From: Stutzerimonas decontaminans
GTDB taxonomy: Bacteria; Pseudomonadota; Gammaproteobacteria; Pseudomonadales; Pseudomonadaceae
DNA length: 64,000 nucleotides
Assembly: GCF_000661915.1 (NCBI RefSeq)
Contig: NZ_CP007509.1
Location: 2,108,001-2,172,000, forward strand
Reading direction: 5' to 3'
The stretch's first letter is position 1, and the number at the start of each line of letters is the position of its first letter. Shown here piece by piece: positions 26,678 to 51,494 of the stretch. A program made the translations under genes and the position numbers. The notes beneath the pieces were generated by a model, which worked only from the letters and a program-made list of their open reading frames with translations, had not been told where the DNA came from and ran no database searches.

Positions 26678-26775
26678 AACGGTCCTCACTAGGCTATGAG
26701 AACCAAGCAGTGCGGGGTGTAGCACCCCGCGCAAACCGTAGCGCACGTCACGCAGTGCAAGCGGAACTGACTCAC

Positions 26776-26803
26776 AAAAATGCGCCCTGGATTGCCAGGG
26801 CGC
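26776..26803 (-). terminator. terminator of the DUF736 gene
   Basis: GCGCCCTGG, ATTG, CCAGGGCGC, with ATTTTTG following on the minus strand, eight bases past the DUF736 stop. Confidence 0.65.
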
Positions 26804-26810
26804 CTTGGCG

Positions 26811-28000: not shown

Positions 28001-31000
28001 TCACTCGTCCTGACTATCAGAAATTCGACTGATGTGGATTGCGTTCGCGCCATCGTCGCCGGTCAGATACAGGCGCAGTGCAAAAAGCAGGTCCGGTGTA
28101 TGGTCACCGTCGGGCTTTTCGATATTGATCTGCACCCGGCAAGACAAAATGGCAGTCGATTCTTCAACGAGTTCGCTCACCCGTTCGACCCTGCGGGCCA
28201 AGGCCTTGGTTATCTGTTGATGAGGCTGGAGCAGCATTCTCAGCCGCACATCGGCGGCTTCGCGCGTACGAAGCACGCCCAGCAGGAGTTCAAGCAACTC
28301 GGTGGTTGCGCGCATCCAGTTGACCGCAGCTCTGTCGTCTTTTGCACTTTTCTTCCTAGGGCATGGATTGATTTGACCCAGCGCCACGTTAAGGGACGTC
28401 AAAACCATTGTCATTTGCGCAGAATCGAACTGTTCAACGAAGTGCCGGTCTCGCCAGATCGCGCAAGCAAAGATGCGCAGGACACTTTCCGTGATGTTCC
28501 GCATGAGGCCCGAGAAAAGGGCTCGCTGCCAGGGTTCATCCAGGCGTCCCAGCGCGAAGCCAATGGCTTGCGGGTTGCGAAAGCTGCCCTTCTCGAGCTC
28601 CCTGGCTAGGTGCTGGATGAAGGTGCTTGGGGCGTCTTTGTGCATGCAACACATCAACACGAAAATCGCGTTTTTCACCGATGCTGGAAGATCGTCCTCC
28701 GCCAGCAGCGAAACGAGATAGTCAATATGGATGCGGGCTGCTTCGGCAAAGACGCCGGGGCAGTCGGCGTCGTCGATGGAGCGACCATCGCGCCATGTCT
28801 GGATGACGGGGTAATACAGGGATTTGCGGATCTGGGTGACGAGGTCCTTGCTGGTGGTTTCGTCGAACCGCTTCAGTCGTTGCACTTCCTCGTGATGCTC
28901 GCCTGCGACGCGGCGGCCAGAACACTTGCCGTCCTGTTCGTGGCGTTCGAATGAAATGCTGTCGCCGACGTTGAAGTCCGTGTACGCATGTCCGTCCAAG
29001 ATATTTTTCTGATGAACGAACACGCGTTCCTGTGTGGTGTTGGTGGTGGCGAAAGTGAAATAGCCTCCGTTCTTGTCAGGGCGCCACTCCCTGCAGATCA
29101 CGGCCTTCGTCCTGGCTCTGGGGCGGATGTAGATATCCTGGTCCAGTCGCGCGATCGCGCGGGTTATCCAGTCGAGCAGGTCAGTAGTTTCACTGCTGCC
29201 GGGTTTTGGCACATGGCGCAGATCGGCCCAGGCCATCGGAGCGGGATACTCCGGAGCGGGGGCGTCGGTGACCACCAGATCCCTGGTACGCCGCCAGGTG
29301 GCTCGCACGTGTGCGAAGGCGCCATTGCGCGGGATGAACGTCAGTTGATAGGGATCGTCGGCCCCGTATTCGAAGGTCAGGTGGAGCGCACAGTCGACAC
29401 TTTCCTCCAATGGAAACGCGGAAGAATCCAGGCGGGCCGAGTAGCCGAGGTCTTCGCTGCTGTCGCCAAGGAAGAGCGGGAACTGGTAGAACGGTCTCTT
29501 CGCTGGGAGGGTGAAATCCTCCTTTACCTCGATTCTGACGGGTCTGCCACGGATCGGAGTGACCGTCGTGCCGCGGGATACAAGCTGGAAGCGCTGCTGA
29601 CGTCCGTCCTTGAGGGCCTTGATCGTCAGTTCAGGTATCTGGTCGCGCCACAGGGGGATCTCTCCGGCACGCTGTTGCAGCGCATGAAAATGAAGGCCTC
29701 CGGATACCGGGCTGTCCGTCACGATGATGGAGAAGGCGAAGCCGCCGATGCGTGGATCCTGTTTCAGCATCGAGGTATCGAGGGAGGCTGGCCTGGCCGG
29801 GACAGCCGGCGGATGCCATTGGTCCTGGTCGTCGATGGAGGTGATGGCGCAGCCGGGTTCTGACTCCTGCGCAGGGGTGTCCGAAAGGATCACCGGTGGA
29901 TGCCGCTCCCAGTAGAAACCTCTCGTTTCCGGGAGCTTGTCCTTGAGCGCCGGATCGAACCTGGCGACCAGTCTCGTTACGCAGGTCGTGCCGCCGACGT
30001 TGTCGATCACGACTATCGGAAAGCCAGCGTTCACTTTCGAGTAGTCCACGCGTTGAACAGCGGCGGCAATACTGCGGGGGAGCGGCACCGCGCCCTGGAA
30101 GCGAGCGTTGAGATTGCGCCGGGTGACGTCGAGTTCGAAATCACTGAGGGCATCGGGCACGAGCCAGATCAGCGTGTCGCTCCTGAACACCTCGTGCAGT
30201 CTGGAGGTGAAGGCGCGTGCAGCGCGGTCCAGATGCTCGGGAGCGGCTTTGGAGAAGAACAGATCCGTCGGGAATAGGGTCGTCACCTGTGGATGCCGAT
30301 AAATCGCGTCTGAGGTGAACAGGTCAAGTGCTACTTCGGTGTTCTCGCCTTGCCATTGTTGCCATAGGAAAGACCCAGGCAGGTACCTGGCCGTTTTACC
30401 TGCGGCATAGCGTGGGAGTGAAGTCGCCAGATCAACGCACACCGGTATCCGAACTTCGATCCTTGTGTCGCGCTTGATCTTCTCCGGTACCGATTGCATC
30501 GCGACGCTGTTGAACCAGGGGCGGATCTCGAAGGTATCGAAGTCGAAGAAAATCGGCATGTCTGCCAGGCAGTGGCGACCCTCGCTCCATATCCGGCTGT
30601 AGGTGATCCAGCGATGCCGGGTCTGGCGACGCGCGTGGACCTCGGACAGGTCGCGAGCGGTGTCATCCTCCAGGGTCTGCATCCAACGCCAGGCGTCCCA
30701 TACCCGTCGGTAATCGCGATGTGACAAAAGCGTGTTGTTGGGCGGCAGGTTCTCCCAGTTCCCGATGTCCCGCGCTTCTCCGGAGCGCAGCCAGGACAGG
30801 ATCGTCACCAGCAGGTCGTCCTGTCGATCATGGCGCGCGCCGCACAGCTCCAAGTGTTGCGCGAGACGCACCATGCATGCCTTGAACAGGCGGTTCTCCG
30901 GCAGGTCGACGGACTGGAACCGCCGAACACCTTGCAGATAGGGGTTGCCCGCGAGCTTTTCTCGCAGGTTGCGTCCGGGGCGATTGCTCAGCTTGATGAA

Positions 31001-31345
31001 ACTGGTGGCATCGAGTTCGCGCACCGCATGGGCGGGCAGTAATGCTTGCTCCCGGCAAGGTGCCTCGTTGAGGCCGCGGACAAGCCGATCTACCGCCGCG
31101 CGGCAATGTTCGGTGATGCGCCAGAGGCGGTCGCGGCACGGGGATCCTGCCTCGGGCGGTGAGTATCCGGCGACCCTGGCCAGAAATACCGACAGTGATT
31201 GCGGCAGCGCCTGCCCGCTCCTGGGGTCGAAGTCGGCGGCATGGCAGAACCAGTCCGACTGCTCGAGAACCTCGCTGATGGCGGCGCTGTCTTGCGCGAC
31301 GTTGCGGCGTACGGAGTCAAAGCTCGACAGGCGTTCACTGGTCAC
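28001..31345 (-). CDS. DUF2357-type protein with an internal cold-shock domain
   Basis: Large protein (1114 residues), last gene of the operon, overlapping the McrB-like gene by 11 bases. Residues about 120-170 have the DUF2357 pattern (LREKLAGNPYLQ, then VDLPENRLFKACMVRLAQHL). In known McrB-type systems DUF2357 proteins take the place of the McrC nuclease partner. Residues about 765-810 read as a cold-shock OB fold: GGYFTFATTNT, ERVFVHQKNILDG and FNVGDSISFERHEQDGKC, so a single-stranded nucleic acid contact is likely. The last 300 residues are helical. I could not point to a complete PD-(D/E)XK site, so nuclease activity is an open question. Inferred role: effector or specificity partner of the neighbouring AAA+ protein. 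Confidence 0.7.
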   Translation of the reverse strand: MTSERLSSFDSVRRNVAQDSAAISEVLEQSDWFCHAADFDPRSGQALPQSLSVFLARVAGYSPPEAGSPCRDRLWRITEHCRAAVDRLVRGLNEAPCREQALLPAHAVRELDATSFIKLSNRPGRNLREKLAGNPYLQGVRRFQSVDLPENRLFKACMVRLAQHLELCGARHDRQDDLLVTILSWLRSGEARDIGNWENLPPNNTLLSHRDYRRVWDAWRWMQTLEDDTARDLSEVHARRQTRHRWITYSRIWSEGRHCLADMPIFFDFDTFEIRPWFNSVAMQSVPEKIKRDTRIEVRIPVCVDLATSLPRYAAGKTARYLPGSFLWQQWQGENTEVALDLFTSDAIYRHPQVTTLFPTDLFFSKAAPEHLDRAARAFTSRLHEVFRSDTLIWLVPDALSDFELDVTRRNLNARFQGAVPLPRSIAAAVQRVDYSKVNAGFPIVVIDNVGGTTCVTRLVARFDPALKDKLPETRGFYWERHPPVILSDTPAQESEPGCAITSIDDQDQWHPPAVPARPASLDTSMLKQDPRIGGFAFSIIVTDSPVSGGLHFHALQQRAGEIPLWRDQIPELTIKALKDGRQQRFQLVSRGTTVTPIRGRPVRIEVKEDFTLPAKRPFYQFPLFLGDSSEDLGYSARLDSSAFPLEESVDCALHLTFEYGADDPYQLTFIPRNGAFAHVRATWRRTRDLVVTDAPAPEYPAPMAWADLRHVPKPGSSETTDLLDWITRAIARLDQDIYIRPRARTKAVICREWRPDKNGGYFTFATTNTTQERVFVHQKNILDGHAYTDFNVGDSISFERHEQDGKCSGRRVAGEHHEEVQRLKRFDETTSKDLVTQIRKSLYYPVIQTWRDGRSIDDADCPGVFAEAARIHIDYLVSLLAEDDLPASVKNAIFVLMCCMHKDAPSTFIQHLARELEKGSFRNPQAIGFALGRLDEPWQRALFSGLMRNITESVLRIFACAIWRDRHFVEQFDSAQMTMVLTSLNVALGQINPCPRKKSAKDDRAAVNWMRATTELLELLLGVLRTREAADVRLRMLLQPHQQITKALARRVERVSELVEESTAILSCRVQINIEKPDGDHTPDLLFALRLYLTGDDGANAIHISRISDSQDE

Positions 31346-33887
31346 GGCCGGCGATTCTCCCTTTCCTGGCGTTTTCCTCCAACGCCCTGCGCAATTCGTT
31401 TCGTTTCTCAGGGGACTTCAGGTTCCAGACCCTGCGGCGCTCGTCCGGATCCGTCAGGCCTAAGTTGAACAGGGACGGCGGTTCTTCCAGGGTGTTTGAG
31501 GTCGGAATGGCGGGGTGGGCGTCGTGTTCCAGCACCGTTGGCGAATCAGATGCGTTGAGATAGTTCGCCGATTGCCAGATGAACTGGCCGTAGCCCAGCT
31601 CGCAGGCTATATCGAAGTCCTCGGTAAGGTTGAAGGGACGGCCACCGATGCCATTGATCAGTCGGTTGCGGATCTTGTCGAGGCACTCCGTCTTGCTCTT
31701 GCCGCGAGTGTCGATGCCACGCAGCTTGGGCATGACCTTCTGTACCAACTGGTCTTCGAACGCAGTATGCATCGCGTCGGCAAGTCGGGATGGGGACTTG
31801 TCATTCTTGGCCGCCCGGACCTCCGGGTAGTTGGCCATGTAGTACTCGATGGATTGCCATACCCGATGGCCAAGTGCCCGACCAGACACGGATAGTGCTT
31901 CATTCAACGCCTCGATGAAGGCCATGTACGGCTTGACTTCGTCTTCCGAGAAGCTGCTGCCTTCTGCCAGCCAGCTTTGCCAGGCGGTTTTGTGCAGCGC
32001 TGGGCCGCGATTCCGGTCATCGAGCGGCAGCAATTTCAGGCGGCGTTTCAATTCGGTCGGCCGCGGGAAATTGACGATGATGGAGCGGTCCAGAACCTTG
32101 TCGGAAAGAGACTTGGTGGTTTCATCCTGGTTCATCGTTCCAGTCCACAGCACATTCCGGCCCAGCGGCAGTTTGTAGGCTGGCATGCCTGCCCCGACCT
32201 TCACCGGCAGCCAGGGCACGTCGTTGCCCTTCCTGCCACGGCGCAGCTCGAGCTTGCTCAGGAATTCGGCAAAGTACAGCTCCGGATGGGCAAGGTTCAT
32301 TTCGTCGAGCAGGACCAGGCACATAGCCTCGGACAAGCCGGGGTAGTCCTCGCTCCAGGGCTTCTGGCTCTGCGCGAGGAAGTTCAGTACCGGTTGGGCG
32401 TCGAACTTGTTGTCGATCGAGTTGAAGAAGCCGAGCATGGACTCCTGCGAGTCCCAGTTCGGCTGGACCGACAGCGGCTCGAAGAAAATGCCGCCGAAGT
32501 GGGCGTACAGGCGGGGCAGTTCGGACTTGCCGGTGCCGGAGACGCCCGAGAGCACGGTCAGGGGCGACCACTCGGCGGTCTTGAGCGCCGTGTGGAAGGC
32601 GTTGAGGATCCGTGGGTTGAAACTTAGGCCATAGCTTCTGCACGCATTGCCGATACCCTTGAGCCAAGTCAGCTCGTCGATCTCCGCCTTCACCGGCAGC
32701 GTGGCACGATCCACGGCGAAATGCGGCCGTTCGATTTCCTTGTGCCGTGCCTCGACCTCGGCAGGGCGTTCATAGGCGGCACGGAGACGGTTGAGTTCGA
32801 CTTGTGCTTCGTTTGCTGCGCCCTCGAAGATCGAGGCCTTCTGCATCAAGGACTGGTTTTCCGCGGAGAGCTCGGAGTTCTTCCGGCGTAGCTGGCCAAC
32901 TTCCGCAACGGCGGTGTCATTGCTCGCGATCTGTCGGGCAAGTTCATCCGCCCGGGCCTTGTGGGACCTTATTTCGGTTTCGAGTTCGAGGGTTCGCTTG
33001 CGCATCTCCTCGGTGGGCCGGTTGGCGAGCTCCTCACGCAGGCGCTTCAGTTCATCGGTCTGACTGTTCAGGTCACGCAGGATCGCGGACGGGTCTTTCC
33101 CTCCGAGCTGGCGCTTCAACTGCTCGAAGACGCCCAGCAGGTCGGCCTGTATGGCAAGGGTTTCACGCAGGCGCCGGTTGTCCTCGATACAGGACTGCTT
33201 CTGCATTTCCAGTGATCTGCGCGCTTCCTCTAGGTTGCTCTCGAGCTCATCGGCGAATTGTTCACTACGCCGCCTGGATTGCTGTTCGAGCCGCTGTTCC
33301 TTGCGTTCCAGATTGCGCTCGGCGGCTTCCAGTTCCATCGCACGCCCGTGTACTTCGCTCTGCAAGGCGCATAATGCCCCCTTCTGTTTAGCCAGCTCGG
33401 ACAGTTCTGCATCCAGTCGTGCGCGAGCGTCGTCCTGTTGTTTCGTCCAGGCCTCACGCTGCCTGCTCAATTCGTCGCGGATGCGCTCGCGCTCGGCGTC
33501 GCCGGCTGCGGATACTTCTGACAGGCGCCTGGACCGGAGATTGGCAAGCTCTTCTTCCAGAGCCGATAGCTGCTGCTCCCGGATTTCTGAAATCCGGCGC
33601 TCGCCCTCGGCGCGTTTCTGGCGCAACTCCGCATTCAAGGCGGCGCGCTTCTCGTCATCGTCCGCTGCGCGTTGCTGTTCGGCGAACTTGAGCTGATCTT
33701 CGCGCCGGCTGAGTTCGGCGGCTTTTCTGGCGAGGGCCTCGCGCTCGGCAGCTATCCGCTGTTTTTCTTCCTCCACGGCGTGCTGGCCCTTGGCGATAGC
33801 CTCGAGGAGCGCGATCTCGGTGTCGCGCAGCAGTTGCGCGGCGGCATCCCGCTTTGTGACGTCTTCCCTATTGTCGGAGTGCTCCAT
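31335..33887 (-). CDS. McrB-family AAA+ ATPase/GTPase with a long coiled coil
   Basis: 850 residues. About residues 15-385 are an almost unbroken coiled coil rich in E, R, Q and A heptads. The AAA+ domain follows: Walker A GVSGTGKS near 450, Walker B LVLLDEMNLAHPE near 525, and WTGTMNQDE near 585 in the place of the McrB MNTADRS signature, with DKVLDRSIIVNF after it. This is the McrB group of ring-forming motors. The coiled coil replaces the DNA-binding N-terminus of classical McrB and may serve as spacer or oligomer sensor. It starts three bases after the stop of the preceding gene and overlaps the DUF2357 gene, so the pair should form an McrBC-like complex. Confidence 0.85.
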   Translation of the reverse strand: MEHSDNREDVTKRDAAAQLLRDTEIALLEAIAKGQHAVEEEKQRIAAEREALARKAAELSRREDQLKFAEQQRAADDDEKRAALNAELRQKRAEGERRISEIREQQLSALEEELANLRSRRLSEVSAAGDAERERIRDELSRQREAWTKQQDDARARLDAELSELAKQKGALCALQSEVHGRAMELEAAERNLERKEQRLEQQSRRRSEQFADELESNLEEARRSLEMQKQSCIEDNRRLRETLAIQADLLGVFEQLKRQLGGKDPSAILRDLNSQTDELKRLREELANRPTEEMRKRTLELETEIRSHKARADELARQIASNDTAVAEVGQLRRKNSELSAENQSLMQKASIFEGAANEAQVELNRLRAAYERPAEVEARHKEIERPHFAVDRATLPVKAEIDELTWLKGIGNACRSYGLSFNPRILNAFHTALKTAEWSPLTVLSGVSGTGKSELPRLYAHFGGIFFEPLSVQPNWDSQESMLGFFNSIDNKFDAQPVLNFLAQSQKPWSEDYPGLSEAMCLVLLDEMNLAHPELYFAEFLSKLELRRGRKGNDVPWLPVKVGAGMPAYKLPLGRNVLWTGTMNQDETTKSLSDKVLDRSIIVNFPRPTELKRRLKLLPLDDRNRGPALHKTAWQSWLAEGSSFSEDEVKPYMAFIEALNEALSVSGRALGHRVWQSIEYYMANYPEVRAAKNDKSPSRLADAMHTAFEDQLVQKVMPKLRGIDTRGKSKTECLDKIRNRLINGIGGRPFNLTEDFDIACELGYGQFIWQSANYLNASDSPTVLEHDAHPAIPTSNTLEEPPSLFNLGLTDPDERRRVWNLKSPEKRNELRRALEENARKGRIAGRDQ

Positions 33888-33890
33888 TTC

Positions 33891-35831
33891 CTAAACCTCG
33901 ATCAGTGCTTTGATAATTTTGTACGATGCCTTGCGCAGCTTCGCGACATCTGTGCTTGCTAATGGCAGTGGCTCATTACCGTGTCCGCGTCTGACGATGT
34001 TCACGGCTACATCGTCGACAAAGGACGGTTGGGTCGCCGCGAGCGACTTGAGGACCAGCTCGTCAGCCATCAGCAGGAACGCGATCATGCAGGCCCCGAG
34101 CGACTGGCCGCTGCCTTGCAGCGTCTGGCGTACAGCCGAAGCCCTGACGGTGAGCAGGCTTGGAGGCAGCCGATGGCACAAGCCGGACCCGATGGCCCTG
34201 TCTTGCGCAGCCTCGATCAGCAGTGCATCTGCCATGTCCGGTGGCAGCCAACGGTTCAGCGACAGCTCGATGACGGACTGCATTGCTGCATAGAGGTCGC
34301 GGACGAACGCCAGGGCATCGTCTCCCTCCTGGCAGGACAGGAAGACCCGTTCGGCATGGACGAGCCGCTCCTTCACGTTCGTCCCGAGGCGGTTGAATGC
34401 GCCGAAGCCGAACTCGTCCTGGATGCTCGCGCGGGCATCCAGTAAGACGTCCGCGTAGGCGTCAGGGTTGCTGCTGGCGGTCGGCTCGCGGGTGAAGGTC
34501 ACTTCCTGCAGCAAGATCTCGATGATCTCGCGCACCAGCGGTTCTGCCAGCAACTCCGATTCCGGGGCGTCGGCACTGCCTTTGCCATGTCCCTTTTCGT
34601 CACGCGCCTTCTTGATTTCGAGTAGGCGGCTGATGAGTGCAGGGTCGCGCGCAGCCAGGCGTCGCAAGGGGTGAGAACCATCGAGTTGCGCGCGAAGGAT
34701 GCTCAAGGTAAGCACCGTTTCCAGCTCTGCCTTTCCCTCCTGGAAGTCCCGCAGCTTGCCCTCCCGAACAGGCCTGAAACCGCATCCCGGTGGTAACAGC
34801 CCGACCTCGGTGGCCGCCCGACCGAGCAACTGCGCATGCTCCGCCTGCGGGGTGAATCTCAAGCGCTCGATATCACCTTCGAAGGGGCGCTTGGCACAGG
34901 CGTAGAACAATGACCACTCCACGGCGGCATAGAGCTGGGCGATCGAGCGGAACGCGGCGTTCGGCAGCAGCCGCAAGTTGCTGATGAGCTTGGGGTATCG
35001 CTGCTGGTTGGCAGGCGTGTCGAACGGTTCTTTAATACGGGGATCCTGGGATGGCGAGCGCGGCTGGCTCAGTGAGGCTTTCCACTTGCCCAGCCACTCC
35101 GTTGCGTATTCATCCTGTTCGAGCAACTGTTCGAATGCCCGTTCGAGCACCAGTGAGAACCCGTTGCCGAAGGGATCTGCGATACGGAATTCGCCGTCGC
35201 TTTTCTGAATGGCGATAGGGCAGTCCAGGTAATACCGTTCCGGCTGCTCCACGATCATGATCTTGTGCAGTGCAGGCGTTCGCTCCGCTTTCCCGAACGC
35301 CGCGGCCCTCCTTTGCATCGCTCGCGTCACCTTGATCACATCCCGCTGGGTGGGCGGCATTTGCGCGGCAGCGAGAGCGCGAATCTTGTAGGCGGCCTGC
35401 TTCTGTTCCTTCTTGCGCAACGGTTGGTGTTCCAGCAGTTGCATGAAGGGCAGGACCTGCCCGCTGACGAGCTCGCGAAACAGCAGCGCGGTCACGAATG
35501 CCGTAGCGCCGGCTTCGCTTGCAGCGTTGCTGCCGGATGCTTCAAGGACGCCGTTGAAATCGTCGATCAACCCTCTGTCCCGAAGACGCAACAGGATGCT
35601 TTTGACCAGGTCGAGCGGAATGCAGGTTTCCTCGGCCAGTGCCTGTGAGGTCATGTTTCCAAGGGCGAGCAGGCTGAGGATGACCTGCTCGAACGGGTTG
35701 AGGCTCAGGCCGTCTTCGTCAGGCTTGGGCAGGGTGATCCGGTAGGCGTCGACGGGCCAGGACAGATTGCGGCGTCGGCCGACGGTTGCCCCGAAGGGGT
35801 CCGGGGTGCCGTAATCCAGGAGCTTCAACAT
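33891..35831 (-). CDS. Unknown helical protein with winged-helix-like N-terminus and a HEPN-like RxxxxH motif
   Basis: 646 residues, not recognised as a whole. Residues 45-95 look like a winged helix (FEQVILSLLALGNMTSQALAEETCIPLDLVKSILLRL). Residues 360-440 are helical and contain KKARDEKGHGKG, where R410 and H415 fit the Rx4-6H catalytic motif of HEPN ribonucleases with an acidic residue after the arginine. A second VRRGHG lies near residue 614. The gene overlaps the helicase gene by seven bases and precedes the McrB-like gene. HEPN assignment is inference from one short motif; a structural adaptor is the alternative. Confidence 0.5.
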   Translation of the reverse strand: MLKLLDYGTPDPFGATVGRRRNLSWPVDAYRITLPKPDEDGLSLNPFEQVILSLLALGNMTSQALAEETCIPLDLVKSILLRLRDRGLIDDFNGVLEASGSNAASEAGATAFVTALLFRELVSGQVLPFMQLLEHQPLRKKEQKQAAYKIRALAAAQMPPTQRDVIKVTRAMQRRAAAFGKAERTPALHKIMIVEQPERYYLDCPIAIQKSDGEFRIADPFGNGFSLVLERAFEQLLEQDEYATEWLGKWKASLSQPRSPSQDPRIKEPFDTPANQQRYPKLISNLRLLPNAAFRSIAQLYAAVEWSLFYACAKRPFEGDIERLRFTPQAEHAQLLGRAATEVGLLPPGCGFRPVREGKLRDFQEGKAELETVLTLSILRAQLDGSHPLRRLAARDPALISRLLEIKKARDEKGHGKGSADAPESELLAEPLVREIIEILLQEVTFTREPTASSNPDAYADVLLDARASIQDEFGFGAFNRLGTNVKERLVHAERVFLSCQEGDDALAFVRDLYAAMQSVIELSLNRWLPPDMADALLIEAAQDRAIGSGLCHRLPPSLLTVRASAVRQTLQGSGQSLGACMIAFLLMADELVLKSLAATQPSFVDDVAVNIVRRGHGNEPLPLASTDVAKLRKASYKIIKALIEV

Positions 35832-38800
35832 TCCAGCACGACTCCTTGTTCGCGGCAGAGCTTATAGAAGTCAACGAGCCCGGGAATGAACTCGGCTGCA
35901 AGGTCGCCTTCCAGCAGGCCCGGGTCGCCGACTACCACCAGCAGTTTCTTCTGGCGGCTCATCGAGACATTCAGGCGGTTGTACAGGCAAAGGTGACCGA
36001 ATAGTGATTGCGCCTGTTTCTCGCGGTCATCGGTGGCGGATTTCCACGGCTGTGGCACGGTCCTAACCGTCGACAGGAAGACCACGTCGAACTCCATGCC
36101 CTGGAACGAGTCCACCGTACCGATACGTAGTCGCTTGTCATTGTCACCGAGTGTGCCGAGCTGCTGCCTGATGTATTCGGCTTGCGCCCTGTAGAAGGAA
36201 ATCACCCCGAAGGTTAAGTCCTTGCCAGCCTCGCAATTCATCCATGCGAGTAGCTGGCGGACGATCAAAGTGGCCTCGATCTGCCGAATCCAGCTGGTTC
36301 CGCTGCGTTGGTGCTTGCCTTTCTCCACGGGTACCGCCAGCCACGCGGCGGGTTTGCCTCCGGTGTCGGGGAGGGCGTGGGCAAAATCGCTTGGAGGCCT
36401 TCCGGAGTCGAACTTCTCGGAAGGGTCGAAGCGCTCGTAGAAATTGCGGCTGATGAAGTCGCCCAGCAGCTCATGCATGCGGTATTGCCTGTCCAGTGTG
36501 ACCCGACGAGTGATTTTGTCGCCTTCCTCCAGGGTCTTCAGGCGCTCCGAGAACAGGTAGTGAAACATCGATTTTTTTAGCCAATCGGTTTCCGACGGGC
36601 CGTTTTCGCCGTCTTCCATCCGGCGTGCGACCTCGTCATCGATAATATGCGGCAACTGGCGGTGGTCGCCGACCAGGATGATGCGCCTGCCCTGTGCCAT
36701 CGGCACCATCAGGTCACGTGGCGAGACGCGTGCGGCTTCGTCGACGATCACATACTCGTACTCCAATTGCTGTTGGTTCAGGTTGGTGTCGCCCCCCCGA
36801 ATGCCCTTCTGGAATTGCATGCTTCGGTTGACGCTTTGCTGGCACGTTGCGGCGAAAGCGAAGCTGTAGTCGGATACAGCCTCCAGCATGGCGCGAGGAT
36901 TGTTGTCGAGTTGGGCGAGAAACTCGGCCAGCGCGGCGGATTTCCTGTCGCGGCCCGAGTACCCTTTGAGCTTGATCTGCTCGATTGCGAAGTTTGCCAG
37001 GGCGACGATCTCGTCATTGGTTTTTTCGATGCGAAAAACGGGAGGTGCGCTGAAGCGGGTCAGCAACTTCTTCTTCAGTGCTACCAACCGCGGCAGGAAA
37101 GACGGGAGGTCATTTTCGTTGCGCCACAGGCTGGCATCGTCCAGCAGCGCAAGGTCCTCGCTGTCCAGCACATCGGAGAGATCGGCCAGCGCGTCGGCGG
37201 CGCGTTCGGGACCGTCGTCGGCAAAGCTTTCAGGCCGGCAGCGAAGGCGACGCACCACGTCGAGCCACTGGTGGTTGGCGTCATTGAGCTTTTCTTCCAG
37301 GCACAGTTTCTTCTGCAGGTTCTCGGCTTGACGTACCCGCTCCTCGCCCAGGACCGTAATGCCGAGCGCTGCGATCCGACCTGCAAGGCGGGCGCCGAGT
37401 ACCCGTGTCGGCGTCTGGTTGTATTGCAGGTACAGGTGCCTGATTTCCGTTTCTTGCTCGATTTCGGCGATCTGTGGGTTTCGTTCACGCAATTCGGTAG
37501 CGAGTTTTCCACACCAACCATCGAGCTGTTCCTCGAAGAAGCTGGCGTTCTCCGTAGCTGCATTGGCGCGCTTGCCGAATTTTGGAACGGGGAGGCTGTT
37601 GAGCGACAGGCGTTCGATCATGTTCTCGACCGCGTCGTGCTGGAACCCTGTCAGCAGCACCTGGCCCCTTATGGTGGCGCCACGCTTGTCCGCCATTTCA
37701 TTCAAGCGCTCGAGAATGGCAGCGATGACCGTGGTCTTGCCGGTTCCGGGAGGTCCCTGGATAAGGGCAATGTCCGGCGTTTCCAAGGCACAGCTTATGG
37801 CATCTAGCTGTTTTGGCGTGGGCGTGCTCTTGAAGACCTTGTTCAGGACGAACGCCGTCAGCGGCTCCACAGGTGACGGCCTACGAGTCTGAGTAATGAC
37901 GCCTTTTTCCTCGATCAGCGGTCCGAGCTGGGGATTGGCTGCCCGGCCTTCGAGAATCAACCGGCGCGCCACCAGGCGGCGCTTGATCTGGGCAACTTCG
38001 CCTGCGAGTGAAAGGATGAGCATGCCCGACTTTTCTGGAAGCCGTTCAGTCTTCAGCTTGAGCGTGTTCGATGCCTTGTCGAACTCGATCACCTCGTAAT
38101 GCTTAGGGTTGGCTTGTGGTTCATCCTGGGGTGAAGAGGGGGGATTGTCCGCAGAGCGCTCGATGCCGCTGGCGAAGTCCTTGAAGAGCAGGGCGGGGTC
38201 AAGCAGATAGTCCGGGAGCTCCTCGACCGACCGGAGTTCGCCGACCTGGCCTTTATCCAGGGCTTTGAGGGCGGCCTCGGAGGCCTGGGCCACGCGTACG
38301 GCCACGGTTCCGTCTCTGTTCTCGACTGCGCCGGCAACGTGCAAGACCCCCACCTGACGTGCCTTCTCCAGCAGCAGTTCGCCTTCGAGGTCGCCGAACT
38401 CGTCCCATTTTCTCAAGTAACTGACGTGTGTCTGCGTCAAGGCTGTCATTTGGGCTTTGGCAAGGAGCCGGATATGTCCGGTTCTGCTCCAGTCAGCGAA
38501 GTGAAGCTTGCCTCGGACCAGGCGTAGAGCGCGGTCCGGGTGCTTGCGTGCCTTGGTCAAGCGCGTGGTGAGGAAAATCGATTTGCCCTGGGGTAACGGC
38601 GTCTCTGTCGCAACGAAGCGCAATCCATCGCCGCTGATGCAGAACGAGTTGTTGCGGGTTGGTTGCTCGCTTCGAGCTGGCTGTGTGTCGCCGGGCATTG
38701 CATCCTGGCCGGCTTGTGATTCCGGGTCTGGCGCCAGGTCGATGTCGTCCCCGCCTGCTGCCGTTTCCTCTTCCTGGACCGGGTCCAGCTTGAGGATCTC

Positions 38801-41311: not shown

Positions 41312-41775
41312 GCCGAGGGTGCTTCCAGCCACCCGTCCAGCGCTGCGAACAGGTCCTCGGCAAGGAAAACGTCCGGGCCTTTCAGCTGCGGATTGGCGTC
41401 CGCGCCGGTCTTGATAAACCGCACCGAGTCGTGGGGAAGCCCCGCCCGCCACTGTTTCAGGTGGCGGGTTTCGGTGCTGGACCAGAAACCGTCGGTCAGG
41501 AGTAATACTTTTCCGTCGGGTGAATCACCCAGCAGGCGGGTCAGGGCGGTTGCGCTGGAGGTACCGCTGCAAACCCGCATGTGCTCCGGGTAATCGTCGG
41601 TCATGGTCCAGTCGCTGAAGACGGCTTCGCTCCCCCAGGCACACAACCTGATCTGTTCCTGTCCTCCCGCCAGATGTATCCACTGGGCGATGGTCATGAC
41701 CGCCGTCCTCGTGATGAATGGCTTGCCCCCCTCGCTCATGCTGCCGGAGGTGTCGCACACCAGGAATAGCGTCAT
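41308..41775 (-). CDS. Small vWA-domain protein
   Basis: 155 residues, essentially one von Willebrand A domain. The metal-ion-dependent adhesion site is complete: DTSGSMS at residues 8-14, a TSS segment near 72, and LLLTDGFW near 90. No other domain or membrane span. ATGA overlap with the gene before it and with the PP2C gene after it. In TerY-P-type modules such vWA proteins act as partners or substrates of the kinase and phosphatase. Confidence 0.83.
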   Translation of the reverse strand: MTLFLVCDTSGSMSEGGKPFITRTAVMTIAQWIHLAGGQEQIRLCAWGSEAVFSDWTMTDDYPEHMRVCSGTSSATALTRLLGDSPDGKVLLLTDGFWSSTETRHLKQWRAGLPHDSVRFIKTGADANPQLKGPDVFLAEDLFAALDGWLEAPSA

Positions 41776-43562
41776 GCCGGCTCCCTGGCCAGCCTGGTGC
41801 GTGCGGCGATCCCGTTCATCAAGCTATTGAGTTGCTCCAGGAACGAACCGCCGCAACAAAGTGCCAGCTTCGCGTCGCTGATTTTTTTCCGTACCGAGTC
41901 CGACCTTGGCGGGAAACAGCAGGCGACGATTCCACGACCTTCGACGCCACCATAGAAGCGGACGAGGTTCTGCAGCTTCATCACTTGCTCCTGCGTGACC
42001 TTGCCCGCCTTGCATTCGACGATGTAGAGCGAATGTCCGTCGGTGAAGGTGACGTCGAGCTCGTTGTGTTGCACGTCGCGGTGAAATGAACCGGTCATGC
42101 CCTGGTTGAGTTGCAGGGTGAGGTTGATTCGGAGGTCCCGGATGATGCCGCGCTCCTCATAGGGTTTGCACTGTAGATAGACAAACTCTTCGAACCAGCC
42201 ACCGGACATGTATTTGGCGAAACCCGTCCAGTGCTTGAAGTGCAGGTTCAGACCGTTGCCCACAACCGATGCCTCGGCTTCCCGGGTGAAGGCGAAGACG
42301 AAACCGTGGCATTCGATGCGGAACGGTGTCAGTGGCTCATCTCTTTGCAGGCATCTTTCGTGTTCGTTGTTGAACCTGCACAAGTCGGTGTAGGCGTCAG
42401 CGATCTTGCTTCGGTATTTCCACAGTGTTCTGGTCAGGCGGCATCGGTCCGCCGAGAACTCGTCCTGGGGCTCGGCGGTCGACACTTTCAGTCCATCGCC
42501 GTTGAGTAGCAGGAAGGTTTCTATCGAGTCGATGGGCCGGATGATTTCCCGATGCAGACTATCGACATAGGTCACGCGCTGGTTGCGGCTGTCGAAGTAG
42601 AAGGGCACGGCACCCAGTGCCCTGGCTGCGGAAAGCGCGCCTGCGAACATCAGCTTGGTGCCGCCCGTAAGGTTCACGCCGATACGCGCGCCTGGCGGCA
42701 AGGTCCTGGCATGGGCAATGATCCTTTCCTGTACGTCCTTGGCATCCCACGGGTCGACGGGGAGTTCATAGAAGTCTGCATCCTGGATGAACGCGCGCAT
42801 GCAGGTCGCTGGAAAGTCCTGGGAGTTCACGAACACATGCCGGTCCGAGGCGAACTGGCGGATGCCTAGCAGCGACGGCATGCGTTGCTCCCCGAACAGG
42901 TGATAGGTCACGGCGAACCCTTCGTGGACGTTGCCTATCGCCGTCTGGCTGGCACCGTGGCGCTCGAGCCATTCGGCAGGCAGGGCAATGGCTTCGGGAG
43001 GCTTGCCGACAACGGGCGAGACGATAAGGCGTTTCTTCAGGTGAGGATGGGCCAGCGCAGCCAGTGCCCACATGAACGCCATGACCGGTGTGCCCGGGCT
43101 CAGGTATAGCGTGACGAGTTTCTCGCCGGCGGCCTTGGCGACGAAATCCAGGGCGCGCATGGCACAGGCGTAGATGCCCTCTGAATCGTTCAGTTCGCGG
43201 AGCGTTTCGCTCTTGAGCGAGATGCACGAGTGCCTGCCGAACTTCTGCAATTGCGCTTCTAGCCAGCGGAGGTAGTGCTCGTGGGCGGCGGGGGTATTGG
43301 CGAAGGTGGAAATGAAGTCGTTGGTCACGCCCCGATCATGTTGCTGGTTGGCGGCATGGATCGCTGCCAGCCGCGTCGCCAGGTCAGCGCAGGCCGGTGT
43401 AGGCGCATGATCCTGGAGGTCGCTTCGCGTGTAGCCAAGAATGACGATTTCGCTATAGTCCTCTGCCGCCAGCGCTGCGGCGATCGGACCTTCCGTGCTT
43501 TCGAATCCCAGCGATGCGCGAAAATCCGTGATGCCATACCAGGTGAGTAGAAACTTCTTCAT
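41772..43562 (-). CDS. Card1/Can2-like protein: CARF sensor plus PD-(D/E)XK nuclease
   Basis: 596 residues from the ATG at 43562 (ATGA overlap). An N-terminal Rossmann-like part (1-240) has the turn LYLSPGTPVM at 152-161. A second (245-345) has GVNLTGGTKLMFAGAL, the N-x-TGGTK motif of the DUF1887/Card1 CARF domain. After a helical linker, the C-terminal nuclease has GGWFEEF (E458 or E459), HNELDVTF (D503) and YIVECKAGK (E516, K518), the full PD-(D/E)XK set. Known Card1 and Can proteins are switched on by cyclic oligoadenylate from type III CRISPR complexes. No Cas10 or CRISPR array is in this window, so the ligand must come from elsewhere or be different. Confidence 0.82.
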   Translation of the reverse strand: MKKFLLTWYGITDFRASLGFESTEGPIAAALAAEDYSEIVILGYTRSDLQDHAPTPACADLATRLAAIHAANQQHDRGVTNDFISTFANTPAAHEHYLRWLEAQLQKFGRHSCISLKSETLRELNDSEGIYACAMRALDFVAKAAGEKLVTLYLSPGTPVMAFMWALAALAHPHLKKRLIVSPVVGKPPEAIALPAEWLERHGASQTAIGNVHEGFAVTYHLFGEQRMPSLLGIRQFASDRHVFVNSQDFPATCMRAFIQDADFYELPVDPWDAKDVQERIIAHARTLPPGARIGVNLTGGTKLMFAGALSAARALGAVPFYFDSRNQRVTYVDSLHREIIRPIDSIETFLLLNGDGLKVSTAEPQDEFSADRCRLTRTLWKYRSKIADAYTDLCRFNNEHERCLQRDEPLTPFRIECHGFVFAFTREAEASVVGNGLNLHFKHWTGFAKYMSGGWFEEFVYLQCKPYEERGIIRDLRINLTLQLNQGMTGSFHRDVQHNELDVTFTDGHSLYIVECKAGKVTQEQVMKLQNLVRFYGGVEGRGIVACCFPPRSDSVRKKISDAKLALCCGGSFLEQLNSLMNGIAARTRLAREPA

Positions 43563-46324
43563 AGGGAACTCCTGGCAACGTAGGGACGGAACCACGTCGT
43601 CTCACCGGTCATGCGGTTCACCAGAACGGCCCGGTTTGGCTTTTCGAGACCTTTGAACTTGCCGATGCCGGTGGAGACAAGCGAGCCGGCGTCGTCTTCA
43701 GTCATGCAATACGCCAGGCGCAGTTCAAAGCACGAAAGAAGGTCCTTGCATGCCGATGCGCAGCGCTGCCAGCGCTCGACGAAGGCGAGCACGAACACCC
43801 CCTGGCGCGGACCATCCTCGGCAATCCGCTTGAGCAGATCGCCGGGAGAGGGCGGCTCACCCGGCTTGGGGGCCCTGAAGGCGGTCGGTGGATGTAGCAG
43901 TTTTTCTGAATCGAGACCGTCGATGATCAACGCGACGCGGCGACTGCCGATGGCGTCGGCAACCGCCTGCAACGGGAGTGCCGCGAGGTCGTCGAATACC
44001 TGCACGGGACTGCCGGACGCGCGCGTGGCTGAGGTGAACCCGCCGTTCGCGGTGACGCCGCGAGCGTTGAAGTAAATGATCTCGTCGAAACGGTTGGATG
44101 CAGCCAGGCTGGACAACGTTGCGTTGAGCAAACCATCGTGGATGGCATCGTTGTAACCGCTGAACAGGATATTGAAGGCCGGGCGCTGAATGAGCGGGAC
44201 CGTGAGCATGTCGGCGTCGAACGTCAGCTGTTGCCCGAGGAGCAGGGCGCCCTCGCGTGCACAGACGTTCTGGTAGGTACTGGCGGAAGGCGGCTCAGGC
44301 AGGCTGGCGCCATTGAAGATTCGGGTCTTGTCCTCCATACGCAGGAGCGCGGCGTGCTCCGCCAGCTTGCTGATGTGCTTGCGGCACGCGTCGCTGTCTG
44401 CCAGGGGTATCAGGAACTTGATGTTGCCGGACCTGGCCCCGTTGGCATTGTTGATGATGCCTTCGGGCGGGCTCTGCAGTTCCGACGCGGCCCAGTTGTT
44501 CGCGCCCAGGATCATCGCCGAGTCTTCCTGGCCGCAGGCCAGAGCGATGCGGCAGCCCAGTTGGGTGGTGATGCTGCCCAAGGACATGGCATTGATGCCT
44601 TTGAGGGTCTGCGTCGCGAGCAGGACATGAATGCCGAATGAGCGCCCCTGTTTCAAAAGTTGCGAAAGGAGTTGTTCTGCGGCCTCCGCTACCGGGCGTG
44701 TGCCGGCGAAGAGCACCTGGAACTCGTCGATGACCAGGAGGCTCCTGGGCAACCGTTCACCGGTCCTTGCGCGGAATCCGGCGAAGTCGGACACCTTGTG
44801 GTCCTTGAACAGGCGTGCGCGCCTCTGCATTTCGCCCACCAGGTGCCGAAGGACCGTGACGCCGTATTCGGGATCGCTTTCCGTGGCAACCAGCCGGGCA
44901 TGCGGGAGGGGCGGGTCCGCATAGATGTTGAATTCCGTCGATTCCTTGTAATCCAGCAGGTAAAGGTCGACTTCCGCTGGCGAATAGCGCTGGCACAGAG
45001 AGTGGATCAGGACGTGCAGCAGGTTCGACTTGCCTGACCCGGTCTTGCCGGCGAGCAATGCATGGTGTTCGGACGTCGTGGCACCGAGGATGAAGGAGGC
45101 GGGCGCGCCGGCGGCCGTCCAGCCGATCGGGATGTCGAAGCCTGCGCAGGTCGTGGCGCCCTTGTGGAAGCCGGCCCAGAGATCCTCCAATGATCGGCTG
45201 AACCGCGCCTTCCGGGCGCACTCTTCAGCGAGCGCCAAAAGATAGGGTCCTAGCCGTTCTTGGCTGGGCCATTGCTCGGGCTTACAGGTCAATGAAAGGC
45301 CAGTGCGTGTGTCGGACGAGGGCGTGAAAAGGGCGTCGAACGCTGCGACCGCTTGCGCTGCGGTTGCGCGGAATTTTTCGTAGCGCTGGTCCGTCAAGCG
45401 GCGCTCGTCGATCGCGATGATCGGCAGGACGCCACAGCGCGGGCCGTTTTCGCACAAACGCTGGAGGAACCACAGGCTCTTTTCGGACAGTTGCTCCGGC
45501 GCGTCGAACAGCACCAGCGCTTTATAGGCAAGCCGGCAGTCGGGGTTCTTCGCGTTGTACGCTGACCAATTGGATGATTCGTCATTGAAACGATGCTGAA
45601 GTAGTTCCTCGACGTCGTCCGTCAGCCGGCCGAGCGCAGACTCGATCTCGTCCGCGCGAGTCAGCACCCGTTGTGCCGGTACCAGTTGCTCGACCTTGAG
45701 CAGGGGCAGGAACGGCTCGACCGATTGTCCGAGTCGCAGCGGGTCGATGAACGTCAACTCCAACTGCGTTGGGGGCAAGGCAGAGAGCAAGCGCAGCAGC
45801 AGGCCAGTTACCCACTGTTTGTGCCCGGTGTGGCTTTGCAAAAAAGCGAGCGCGCTGGTGAGGGGAAATGGGATGCTGTTTGGCGTCGAGCAGGTGAGAT
45901 CTTCGAAGCCCAGTTGCCGAGAACCGAGAAACAGGCACGCAGGCATATCCGCGACCGCCCATGGCGTTGTAGGGACGAGATCCGCCAAAGCCGGCTGTTC
46001 GCGGCGGAGCCGCCCACTCGAACGCTTTTCGTTCGTGGCGATTCCTTCCCATCGCTGCACGAACGCCGATCGCCAGGCCGTTGTCCGCTGGCCGCGGCTG
46101 GCGTTTGTCTTTCTTTCTTCATCTGCCAGCCGCCGTACGGCTTCTTGCGCCGGGGCAGCGAGGTGCGTTTGCCCAGGTTTACGTAAACCCTGGAGGGTTT
46201 GCTCCCTCCTGGTCGCGGCCGCATCGAATTCGCGGTCGATGCGGGCCAGCCCTTCTTGATAGTCGGCGATGGCTTGAATAATCCTGCAGACAATCTGGTC
46301 CGGATGCTCGAGTGATCCCTTCAT
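43559..46324 (-). CDS. EccC/FtsK-like ATPase with three tandem domains
   Basis: 921 residues. The middle domain is an intact FtsK/SpoIIIE motor: LLAGKTGSGKSNLL near 435, LLVIDEFQVLF near 530 and GIHVLLATQ near 560. The parts before and after resemble degenerate copies: TGLLLRLLSALPPTQLELTFID near 185, and FNILFSGYNDAIHDGLLNATLS near 735 with LIIDGLDSEKLL near 815, both without a Walker A lysine. Three units with one or few active sites is the plan of EccC, the motor of ESX (type VII) secretion. No membrane span is evident, unlike EccC and FtsK. ATGA overlaps at both ends. A WXG100-like protein is encoded four genes upstream. Confidence 0.8.
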   Translation of the reverse strand: MKGSLEHPDQIVCRIIQAIADYQEGLARIDREFDAAATRREQTLQGLRKPGQTHLAAPAQEAVRRLADEERKTNASRGQRTTAWRSAFVQRWEGIATNEKRSSGRLRREQPALADLVPTTPWAVADMPACLFLGSRQLGFEDLTCSTPNSIPFPLTSALAFLQSHTGHKQWVTGLLLRLLSALPPTQLELTFIDPLRLGQSVEPFLPLLKVEQLVPAQRVLTRADEIESALGRLTDDVEELLQHRFNDESSNWSAYNAKNPDCRLAYKALVLFDAPEQLSEKSLWFLQRLCENGPRCGVLPIIAIDERRLTDQRYEKFRATAAQAVAAFDALFTPSSDTRTGLSLTCKPEQWPSQERLGPYLLALAEECARKARFSRSLEDLWAGFHKGATTCAGFDIPIGWTAAGAPASFILGATTSEHHALLAGKTGSGKSNLLHVLIHSLCQRYSPAEVDLYLLDYKESTEFNIYADPPLPHARLVATESDPEYGVTVLRHLVGEMQRRARLFKDHKVSDFAGFRARTGERLPRSLLVIDEFQVLFAGTRPVAEAAEQLLSQLLKQGRSFGIHVLLATQTLKGINAMSLGSITTQLGCRIALACGQEDSAMILGANNWAASELQSPPEGIINNANGARSGNIKFLIPLADSDACRKHISKLAEHAALLRMEDKTRIFNGASLPEPPSASTYQNVCAREGALLLGQQLTFDADMLTVPLIQRPAFNILFSGYNDAIHDGLLNATLSSLAASNRFDEIIYFNARGVTANGGFTSATRASGSPVQVFDDLAALPLQAVADAIGSRRVALIIDGLDSEKLLHPPTAFRAPKPGEPPSPGDLLKRIAEDGPRQGVFVLAFVERWQRCASACKDLLSCFELRLAYCMTEDDAGSLVSTGIGKFKGLEKPNRAVLVNRMTGETTWFRPYVARSSL

Positions 46325-46551
46325 GCATCACACTCCGAATGTGACGTGCCGACGCCTTGCGCTTCCGCTAGGACGCAGTGGATGGCCGCAACCTGACGCT
46401 GGTAGTCTTCGCTGAAACTGCGCAGGAAGGCGATGTTCTCCAGGATCGGGGAGAGCACTTCATTGACGATGGATGTGCCGAATGCATCCCGCACCCCAGC
46501 GTCGAACCTGTTTGCACAGCCCACCATCAACCCCATGACATCGTCAAACAT
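46321..46551 (-). CDS. Small unknown protein (76 residues)
   Basis: Begins MFDDVMGLMVGCANRFDAGV at the ATG at 46551, with GGGAG nine bases upstream; the frame continues further up but without a start that fits. Predicted all-helical. Overlaps the preceding gene by eight bases and the ATPase gene by four, so it is kept as real. Size and placement between a WXG100-like gene and an EccC-like gene suggest a chaperone or second small substrate; not recognised. Confidence 0.6.
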   Translation of the reverse strand: MFDDVMGLMVGCANRFDAGVRDAFGTSIVNEVLSPILENIAFLRSFSEDYQRQVAAIHCVLAEAQGVGTSHSECDA

Positions 46552-46879
46552 CGAAGTCTCCCGGTTCATCATCCATGGGGATTTCCAAAACGTGCGCATC
46601 GTTGGCGATGCCTGGGAGCAACGAAGCACACGGCTGGGCCGCCAGCAGGTAACGGGACTCGAACTCGGGATAAACGCGCCTTATTCCGCTCAGGAACGTT
46701 CGCCACTCCTCCTCGGATAGGTCGATCGAGCGGCAGCCTGCGGTCAACTCCAACAAGCGCGTAGTGGCCTCGTCCACGTCATCCATGTCGCCGGTGTTGA
46801 CCGCTCGCTGCAACTGCTCCACTCCCGCCCGAACCGCTTCAAGGATGGCAGGATCCACTACGGCGAATCGCACTTTCAT
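46544..46879 (-). CDS. Unknown acidic protein (111 residues)
   Basis: Helical, with many acidic residues, beginning MKVRFAVVDPAILEAVRAGV and ending in an acidic tail (MDDEPGDFDV). No known motif. ATGA overlap with the coiled-coil nuclease-like gene before it and an eight-base overlap with the next gene. It could be an immunity-like or adaptor protein for its upstream neighbour. Confidence 0.6.
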   Translation of the reverse strand: MKVRFAVVDPAILEAVRAGVEQLQRAVNTGDMDDVDEATTRLLELTAGCRSIDLSEEEWRTFLSGIRRVYPEFESRYLLAAQPCASLLPGIANDAHVLEIPMDDEPGDFDV

Positions 46880-48186: not shown

Positions 48187-48202
48187 TGCCCTTGCGACGT
48201 CC

Positions 48203-48472
48203 TCAGCTTTGAAGGTAATCGCGCAGGCGCGACGCAAGTGCGATCAAATAGGGCACCTGTTCTGTTGCGCTCGCATTGAACTGATGGAGGTGCTGGACGA
48301 GCATGTTGAACTCTTCTTCGAATTGTGAGCGTTTCTCGTCCTGCCAGGTGTCACCGAGCGACACGAACGCTCCATCTAGGGCGCCGACACTGTCATTGAG
48401 CGAGTCGGTGAAACGCTGCAACGCATACGCAAAGCGCTCTAGCTCTTCGGGATCTCCAATTGCTTGTGCCAT
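48203..48472 (-). CDS. WXG100-like small helical protein
   Basis: 89 residues in two helices joined by LGDTWQDEKRSQFEEEF. The W43-Q44-D45 turn followed by a phenylalanine eight residues after the tryptophan is the WXG100 (ESAT-6) layout with the glycine changed to aspartate. Length and the helix-turn-helix hairpin also match. Its start overlaps the stop of the vWA gene (TAATG). WXG100 proteins are normally substrates and activators of EccC motors; an EccC-like motor is in this operon. Confidence 0.68.
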   Translation of the reverse strand: MAQAIGDPEELERFAYALQRFTDSLNDSVGALDGAFVSLGDTWQDEKRSQFEEEFNMLVQHLHQFNASATEQVPYLIALASRLRDYLQS

Positions 48473-49206
48473 TACCAGTAGCCTCCGTCCTCTTCTGCAA
48501 CCTGTGCCGCCGACGTCGGTGATCCCTGTCGGGCGCCGATGGTTGCTGGCTGGACATCGATCGCACTTGCAGGCGGTATGGAGTTCGGGGTCTGCGACCT
48601 GGTGCGCAAGGTTACGGACATGGTCACGTACTTGAAGAACTCCTTCAGTTGCCTCGCATTCTCTGCATAGAAGAGCGCGTTCTGCGTGCCCTCGATGAAT
48701 GTACGGAGCACGGCCTCGTTGGCGTCGGCACCGATGGCCATCGCCATGCGATCACATTTCGAGGAACGCCCCTCACTGACGAACGCCTGCAAAGCGTCTT
48801 CCCAGCCATTGTCCGGCTGCCCGTCCGAGACCAGCACCACGGTGGGACGATAAGCGCGTGATGGCACGACATCCTTGTCTTCAATCATTGCTTTGGCCAT
48901 CTCAAGTGCGACACCCAACGGAGTCGTGCCGCCAGCTGCAAGCGCTTGCCATCGGATGTCGTTAGCACTGGCCAGGGGTTGGTGCAGCGTCACCTGAGCG
49001 CCGAACGTGATGATTGAAACCCAGATCTCCGTCTCGCTGGTCTCGTTGTCACGGAACACGTTTAGCATGTCGCGCACCGCGTCATTTAGGTTGTGAATCT
49101 TTTCCCCACCCATGCTGCCGCTGACGTCGAGCAAGAAAATAACAGGGAGTGGCTTGGCTTTTGGCGCCGTGAATTTAGACGGATCAAAGGGAGTGTTCAC
49201 AGGCAA
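48472..49206 (-). CDS. TerY-like vWA protein, first gene of the operon
   Basis: 244 residues. The vWA domain (about 15-190) has the adhesion-site motif LLDVSGSMGGEKI at 24-36, TTPLGVALEMA near 93 and VLVSDGQPDNGW near 125. It resembles TerY, the vWA partner of phosphorylation modules linked to tellurite resistance. The last 50 residues are proline/serine rich and disordered. The start codon that fits is TTG at 49206, with AAAGAG a few bases upstream; a GTG six bases later is the alternative. A rare start may keep expression of the whole operon low. Confidence 0.82.
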   Translation of the reverse strand: MPVNTPFDPSKFTAPKAKPLPVIFLLDVSGSMGGEKIHNLNDAVRDMLNVFRDNETSETEIWVSIITFGAQVTLHQPLASANDIRWQALAAGGTTPLGVALEMAKAMIEDKDVVPSRAYRPTVVLVSDGQPDNGWEDALQAFVSEGRSSKCDRMAMAIGADANEAVLRTFIEGTQNALFYAENARQLKEFFKYVTMSVTLRTRSQTPNSIPPASAIDVQPATIGARQGSPTSAAQVAEEDGGYW

Positions 49207-51483: not shown

Positions 51484-51494
51484 AATCGAAGATG

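Follow-up and report, generated by a model that had tools for sequence, protein, structure and literature searches.

The 14-gene operon of Stutzerimonas decontaminans as a probable Type III-A CoCoNuT whose EssC/WXG100 5' extension may be a toxin cassette

The window analysed here is a stretch of 64,000 nucleotides from Stutzerimonas decontaminans (NZ_CP007509.1, positions 2,108,001 to 2,172,000; genome of 4.83 Mb in two contigs), in which 14 consecutive open reading frames of the minus strand, from 49206 down to 28001, form one operon (g1 to g14, Table 1). This operon is almost certainly a Type III-A CoCoNuT with an EssC/WXG100 5' extension, as already described by Bell et al. in 2024 (PMC11090510), whose text, as far as it was available to us, presents CoCoNuTs as McrBC-derived, Type IV restriction-like systems predicted to target RNA. 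For the extension we propose, with a probability of about 0.35, that the EssC block of such Type III-A CoCoNuTs stems from a polymorphic-toxin cassette that was captured and turned inward: g3 would be a nuclease toxin whose hairpin is bound by g2 and g5, g4 would be its immunity protein, and the cytosolic motor g6 would strip or release the toxin in the cell once infection is signalled by the CoCoNuT core and the TerY-P switch, while the slot would alternate such cassettes with SpoVK-type ones.

A sequence-only reading of the window had recognised a single operon of 14 genes, which is borne out here, and had rightly linked its parts to conflict and defence modules. Its domain calls (VWA, WXG100, FtsK, CARF nuclease, PP2C, kinase, UPF1-type helicase, DUF2357) agree with Pfam or profile matches, some of them under cut-off. 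Its statement that no described system holds this set was wrong, because the set is the first of the 5'-extended Type III-A variants in the available text of Bell et al. (PMC11090510), and decayed relatives appear in the part of PMC4978471 that we could consult.

Identification of the operon as a Type III-A CoCoNuT

Three 5'-extended variants of Type III-A CoCoNuTs are described in the text of PMC11090510 available to us. The 5' genes of the first encode a VWA protein, two WXG100 proteins, a coiled-coil-D-ExK fusion, a small protein resembling an HU-binding DNA mimic and an EssC-like motor with one active ATPase site; the rest encode a 2xCARF-D-ExK protein, a shorter second VWA, PP2C, a kinase with a zinc ribbon, CnuH, CnuE, CnuB and CnuCD. 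The window holds all 14 gene classes as that text names them (a comparison with the text, not with the gene-order figure), and differs in the W-x-D of g2, in the single cold-shock domain detected and in the threonine kept near the metal ion-dependent adhesion site (MIDAS) of g8.

The motifs of the core proteins agree with this assignment. CoCoNuTs are marked by an McrB-like GTPase with NxD replacing NxxD; in g13 (CnuB) this motif is NQDE, at residues 586-589, and NxD stands in 17/17 rows that hold the region, the 18th row (G668) being truncated. The sequence-only call of an McrB-like GTPase, for which g13 gives no Pfam match, is upheld by motifs that were read directly and are conserved, while the long coiled coil expected to be fused to the GTPase was recognised by eye only, at residues ~30-380. 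In g11 (CnuH), UPF1-like as expected, Walker A lies at 508-515 and DEAA at 846-849; the two Walker motifs are ~330 residues apart, in keeping with the large insertion after Walker A that marks CnuH. In Type III-A, SPB and RTL domains would also be expected at the N-terminus of this protein. Both HEPN motifs of CnuE are present in the window (RxxxxH in 17/18 rows, RxH in 15/18), as sequence motifs and not as folds. In g14 CnuC is fused to Hsp70-like nucleotide-binding and substrate-binding domains (NBD/SBD), and the Hsp70-like fold was found. The PD-(D/E)xK nuclease is expected to have been lost from CnuC in Type III-A; Pfam and solved-structure searches gave no nuclease match in g14, although a missing match is not proof of loss. 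One cold-shock domain was detected in g14, at 747-813; two are typical, but not strictly so, for CARF variants.

The TerY-P triad of VWA, PP2C and kinase-zinc ribbon is complete, its VWA (g8) being weak by Pfam, and the zinc-ribbon motif of g10 is well conserved (CxxC in 17/18 rows, CPxC in 18/18). The middle MIDAS threonine, expected to be absent from the internal VWA, is kept in the window, where the row reads GTS, whereas S or A takes this place in the majority of the distant rows. In the CARF nuclease g7, the D and ExK residues are kept in 12/12 readable rows, and residues 281-559 match Can2 in the PDB (E 1.9e-9); Can2 and Card1 (PDB 7bdv, 6wxw) share with g7 the combination of CARF and PD-(D/E)xK nuclease. 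Of the two CARF domains expected, one gave a Pfam match below the cut-off (residues 233-341 in the frame of 607 aa), and the other was recognised only as a conserved motif near 153-162.

Similar clusters have been reported before. The reconstructed ancestral cluster of the Helicobacter pylori TerY-P island, as given in the portion of PMC4978471 available to us, likewise has WxG, FtsK, AAA+ helicase, ParA-like SMC+McrB, DUF2357 and the TerY-P triad; its copies are decayed and an LHH nuclease is named there, whereas the copy in the window has 14 open frames. This H. pylori pan-genome paper of 2016 refers, in the same portion, to earlier work on the cluster. The accessible text of a 2025 preprint (PMC12458937) counts the known defence systems Druantia I and II as Type IV CoCoNuTs, another type. 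Literature searches turned up, among the records that they listed, no experimental study of a Type III-A CoCoNuT.

Synteny and distribution of related loci

We compared 17 related loci, chosen by core or CARF queries, a choice that is biased in favour of the core. A genome scan with the CnuH alignment picked generic helicase motifs and gave at least 80 loci, from which no frequency can be derived; 13 of 80 (L004-L015, L082) were compared; of these, L011, L012, L014 and L082 were later excluded because they were partial or too distant, and L016-L081 and L083 were left out. All 14 genes recur in 5/17 loci, so that the arrangement of the operon is not due to chance. The order is the same in four of these, namely a Caballeronia plasmid (L002), Acetobacter persici (L004, with some frames shorter), Pseudomonas sp. 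BBP2017 (L005) and G443; in the fifth, L008, the CARF gene has moved behind g14.

PP2C, the kinase, CnuH, CnuE, CnuB and CnuCD occur together in all 17 loci of this selection-biased sample, and g8 homologues in 15. The other parts are less constant: the EssC block (g2, g3, g5, g6) is present, complete or almost so, in 6/17 loci, with a fragment of g6 in G668, and the CARF gene in 12/17, lying behind g14 (3' of CnuCD) in L006, L007 and L008 (Treponema, Cryobacterium and Chthoniobacteraceae). In the remaining five loci no CARF gene was found, but in four of them (all but L101) the sequence extends only 0.9-1.4 kb behind g14, and a CARF gene farther away is possible. The regular separation of the blocks, which the sequence-only reading had named as evidence against itself, is thus seen in part. 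Joint inheritance of the set, as it claimed, is borne out among close relatives only, and its claim that all 14 genes act together is too strong, because the core is constant while the EssC block and the CARF gene vary; the locus is better described as a core that has slots for additional parts.

On closely similar cores, different content occupies the slot that follows the 5' VWA gene. CnuH of G443, which has the EssC block, is 84-85% identical to that of Klebsiella/Phytobacter plasmids with a SpoVK-type block (L003/L102) and 89% identical to that of a Cloacimonadota locus with no block (L009); between these plasmids and L009 the value is 82%. In the CnuH tree as well as in the CnuB tree, all four fall into one clade (100/99 support). 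Furthermore, wherever a 5' VWA gene occurs with an EssC or SpoVK-type block (10/10 rows), the block is directly downstream of a VWA gene. A comparison of slot variants on near-identical cores was not found in the available text of PMC11090510.

The CARF protein was found in 1/97 genomes searched as relatives, which is the window's own. Protein relatives with up to 95% identity to it occur in Pseudomonas. CnuCD at E <= 1e-20 was found in 2/390 genomes of the order, 4/369 of the class and 2/398 of the phylum, the own genome being counted each time in overlapping samples. Among 72,556 plasmid records, the CARF protein matched 16, CnuCD 17 and the WXG100-like g2 two.

Some loci depart from this picture individually. 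In L008 an additional VWA gene (1111-1920; PF13519, E 4e-9), the third of this locus, separates the WXG100-like gene from the 5' VWA gene. Decayed relatives include L003, where the DUF2357 gene is broken by an insertion sequence element, L099/L100 (G668), where g6, g13 and g14 are shortened, and L096 (G501), where the CARF gene is not in a single frame.

The EssC block as a possible toxin cassette

EssC-type motors are part of the type VIIb secretion system (T7SSb). In the motor g6, one Walker A/B site is intact, in the middle domain, while the equivalents of D1 and D3 lack Walker A, in agreement with the single active site of the EssC extension. All its 19-residue segments have Kyte-Doolittle values of at most 1.19, that is, g6 has no transmembrane part. 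Since g2 has W-x-D in 7/7 rows, and not the W-x-G of the strict WXG100 definition, we call it WXG100-like. In g3 the residues D322, E351 and K353 are kept in 7/7 rows, and an AlphaFold2 model built from 5 sequences (pLDDT 90.3) has two long helices followed by an alpha/beta domain. The fold search with this model was little informative, being dominated by long-helix proteins, with colicins present only by their helical-hairpin shape; the g3 sequence found only tektins in the PDB.

Polymorphic toxin cassettes combine a conserved trafficking part with a C-terminal toxin that can be exchanged and an immunity gene that matches it. Among the relatives of the block outside CoCoNuTs, one looks like a toxin/immunity arrangement. 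The motor g6 matches 304/72,556 plasmid records, of which six contexts were viewed: Caballeronia (a CoCoNuT), Helicobacter, two Rhodococcus, Deinococcus and Polaromonas. The position of g4 equals that of a SUKH gene on the Helicobacter plasmid (L103). An apparent exchange is seen between g3/g4 and this one WHH/SUKH pair, and the coil of g3 scores 12.1 bits against the Helicobacter protein, which is weak but above shuffles. By Pfam, WXG100 is found beside the motors of Helicobacter, Deinococcus and, weakly, Rhodococcus L105 (E 0.0051), all under cut-off, and was not found in Rhodococcus L104. A search of the plasmid records with the Helicobacter WHH protein matched only itself, and a scan of viral contigs with the EssC alignment gave 23 distant loci at <= 32% identity. 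Two of the non-CoCoNuT cassettes adjoin Hsp70-like genes: Rhodococcus L104 at 5656-7188 (Pfam E 1.8e-132) and Helicobacter L103 at 6215-8101, the latter recognised by eye only, with no Pfam match. A functional link between these genes and the Hsp70-like part of CnuCD is possible.

Several observations weigh against the toxin part of our proposal. In L015 the D-ExK residues of g3 are kept but g4 is missing, and g4 shows no sequence relation to SUKH. The g3 coil against the Rhodococcus L105 protein gives 1.5 bits, no better than shuffles, while a score of 10.7 was obtained with another coil protein of Deinococcus; part of the match to the Helicobacter protein may therefore be due to coil composition. 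The cysteine motif was devised after the sequences had been viewed. In Polaromonas L106 (1811-aa protein) the annotation shows neither a WXG100-like nor a toxin-like gene, which gives the cassette idea no support, and within CoCoNuTs the nuclease is D-ExK in 7/7, without exchange. The roles of g3 as toxin and of g4 as its proposed immunity protein or inhibitor are put forward here tentatively.

Alternative explanations

The block g2-g6 might instead be a true type VII-like system exporting WXG100 proteins, the view towards which the available text of Bell et al. (PMC11090510) leans, and the presence of an EssC/EccC-like motor with a WXG100-like protein agrees with it. We consider it unlikely, because the Kyte-Doolittle mean does not exceed 1.70 in a single 19-residue segment of the 14 proteins, and YukC/EssB (PF10140) was not found in the genome (one genome, B. 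subtilis control positive; among membrane parts only EssB and EccB were sought, and the EccB search, PF05108, was uninformative as no control genome matched). On the same two grounds the label of a classical type VII system was rejected. The T7SSb operons EsaD-EsaG-EsxBCD (PMC10653861) and LXG-Lap1-Lap2 (PMC9600955), as their accessible texts describe them, combine a nuclease toxin with a helical transport part, an immunity protein and small WXG100-like partners, as seems to be the case here; besides the missing YukC/EssB match, the window differs from them in that g3 has no LXG match in Pfam at E 0.1 and in that the cassette is embedded in a CoCoNuT.

It is about equally doubtful that the operon consists of three independent defence units, adjacent through island clustering and not acting together. 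That the extensions do not track the core in the G443, L003/L102 and L009 clade, and that the CARF gene is displaced in some loci and not found in the available stretch of others, are what such units would give; overlapping frames, the constant placement of the EssC or SpoVK-type block directly behind a VWA gene and the company of PP2C and kinase with the core in every locus (selection bias notwithstanding) argue for cooperation. The remaining candidate, a Mokosh system with neighbours, is very improbable. Its MkoA and MkoB are a related helicase and winged helix-turn-helix (wHTH) protein, matched by g11 (281 bits) and g12 (35 bits), and these matches are explained by the fact that helicases of this large family typically adjoin wHTH-effector genes (PMC11090510, in the text available). 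The Mokosh label was rejected, as the CoCoNuT description covers g13 and g14 and also the TerY-P triad and the extension. To our knowledge Mokosh accounts for none of these four.

How the extended CoCoNuT might work

We propose a tentative scheme, which as a whole is somewhat less probable than not. The core would consist of the CnuB NxD GTPase, CnuCD with its Hsp70-like, cold-shock and putative HEAT-like parts, and UPF1-like CnuH with the CnuE HEPN RNase; it would recognise abnormal or viral RNA, or stalled translation, and cleave RNA. The VWA-PP2C-kinase triad may switch the core by phosphorylation, and the CARF-D-ExK protein may add a second nuclease stage gated by cyclic nucleotides, by analogy with Can2. 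As a last resort, the nuclease g3 would be released from the block g2-g6, which would add it together with the small inhibitor g4, the helical partners g2/g5 and the cytosolic motor. Architecture, motifs, synteny, the Hsp70-like fold and the lack of a strongly hydrophobic segment were observed directly; RNA target, cyclic-nucleotide gating, phosphorylation switch and an outcome of dormancy or death are presumed, following the accessible text of Bell et al. (PMC11090510).

Locus architecture and genomic setting

The starts of g3, g5, g7 and g9 were shifted downstream of those of the longest frames, to 48186, 46551, 43562 and 41311, in line with the annotation of the Caballeronia plasmid and with further relatives. 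With these starts 11/13 junctions overlap by 1-14 nt, and the remaining two are gaps of 16 and 3 nt. A promoter scan found none, and a terminator scan gave fewer terminators than in shuffles.

Table 1. Genes of the operon in window coordinates, with the evidence for each assignment
Gene	Product	Position	Strand	Evidence or remark
g1	5' VWA (TerY-like), complete MIDAS motif	48472..49206	-	Pfam VWA E 3.3e-15; DxSxS, T, D aligned
g2	WXG100-like helical protein, W-x-D replacing W-x-G	48203..48472	-	PF06013 E 4.6e-6, 27.3 bits = Pfam cut-off
g3	Coiled-coil hairpin + D-ExK nuclease-like domain, 436 aa	46876..48186	-	Longest-frame start 48237 too long
g4	Small acidic protein, isoelectric point 4.26	46544..46879	-	Position of the HU-binding DNA mimic in the available text of Bell et al.
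g5	Second small protein, 76 aa, taken as WXG100-like partner without W	46321..46551	-	
g6	EssC/EccC-like FtsK-family motor	43559..46324	-	FtsK_SpoIIIE E 8.5e-31; TIGR03924 102 bits, cut-off 509
g7	CARF D-ExK nuclease, Card1/Can2 relative, 596 aa	41772..43562	-	PDLC01882 907 bits; Card1-type endonuclease E 4.5e-9
g8	Internal shorter VWA	41308..41775	-	Pfam VWA_2 E 0.085 only
g9	PP2C phosphatase, 238 aa	40595..41311	-	PF13672 E 2.7e-46
g10	Ser/Thr kinase, C-terminal CxxC...CPxC zinc-ribbon motif	39274..40608	-	Pkinase E 1e-8
g11	CnuH, UPF1-like superfamily 1 helicase	35825..39277	-	AAA_12 E 1.7e-33, AAA_11 E 3.2e-26; TIGR00376 126 bits, below cut-off
g12	CnuE, wHTH-like N-terminus + HEPN motifs RxxxxH, RxH	33891..35831	-	Motif rows; weak HTH matches under cut-off; MkoB profile 35 bits
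g13	CnuB, long N-terminus (coiled coil by eye) + McrB-like GTPase, NxD motif NQDE	31335..33887	-	Walker A/B + NxD rows; PDC-M26A 85 bits
g14	CnuCD: DUF2357, Hsp70-like NBD/SBD, cold-shock domain, putative HEAT-like helical repeats	28001..31345	-	DUF2357 E 0.0015, cold-shock E 1.1e-4, both under Pfam cut-off

Just upstream of the operon lies a DDE transposase gene (PF01609; 49669-50649, plus strand), and near its 3' end, at 25958-27119, a RadC-like JAB gene with a DUF736 gene, a pair common in integrative elements. A 49-bp copy of the 3' end of tRNA-Pro(GGG) is found at 51437-51485, just upstream of mtnA/gyrA; the intact tRNA-Pro gene (G000:C1:1966674-1966750) is 192.7 kb away from this copy, whereas in the relatives G018 and G012 the intact tRNA-Pro stands ~5.9 kb from the mtnA match. 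These copies fit a large tRNA-Pro island in which the operon would lie close to the right end, the whole stretch being a putative single element.

Conclusions

The locus is a complete copy of a published system and hence a good test object. An open question in Bell et al. (PMC11090510, in the text available), namely why VWA genes flank secretion-type motors, can be seen in the light of a slot that takes different cassettes on similar cores. Relatives of the EssC cassette also occur outside CoCoNuTs, and one of these resembles a toxin/immunity unit. If our proposal is true, Type VII-style toxin machinery would be used here for abortive defence, not for secretion.

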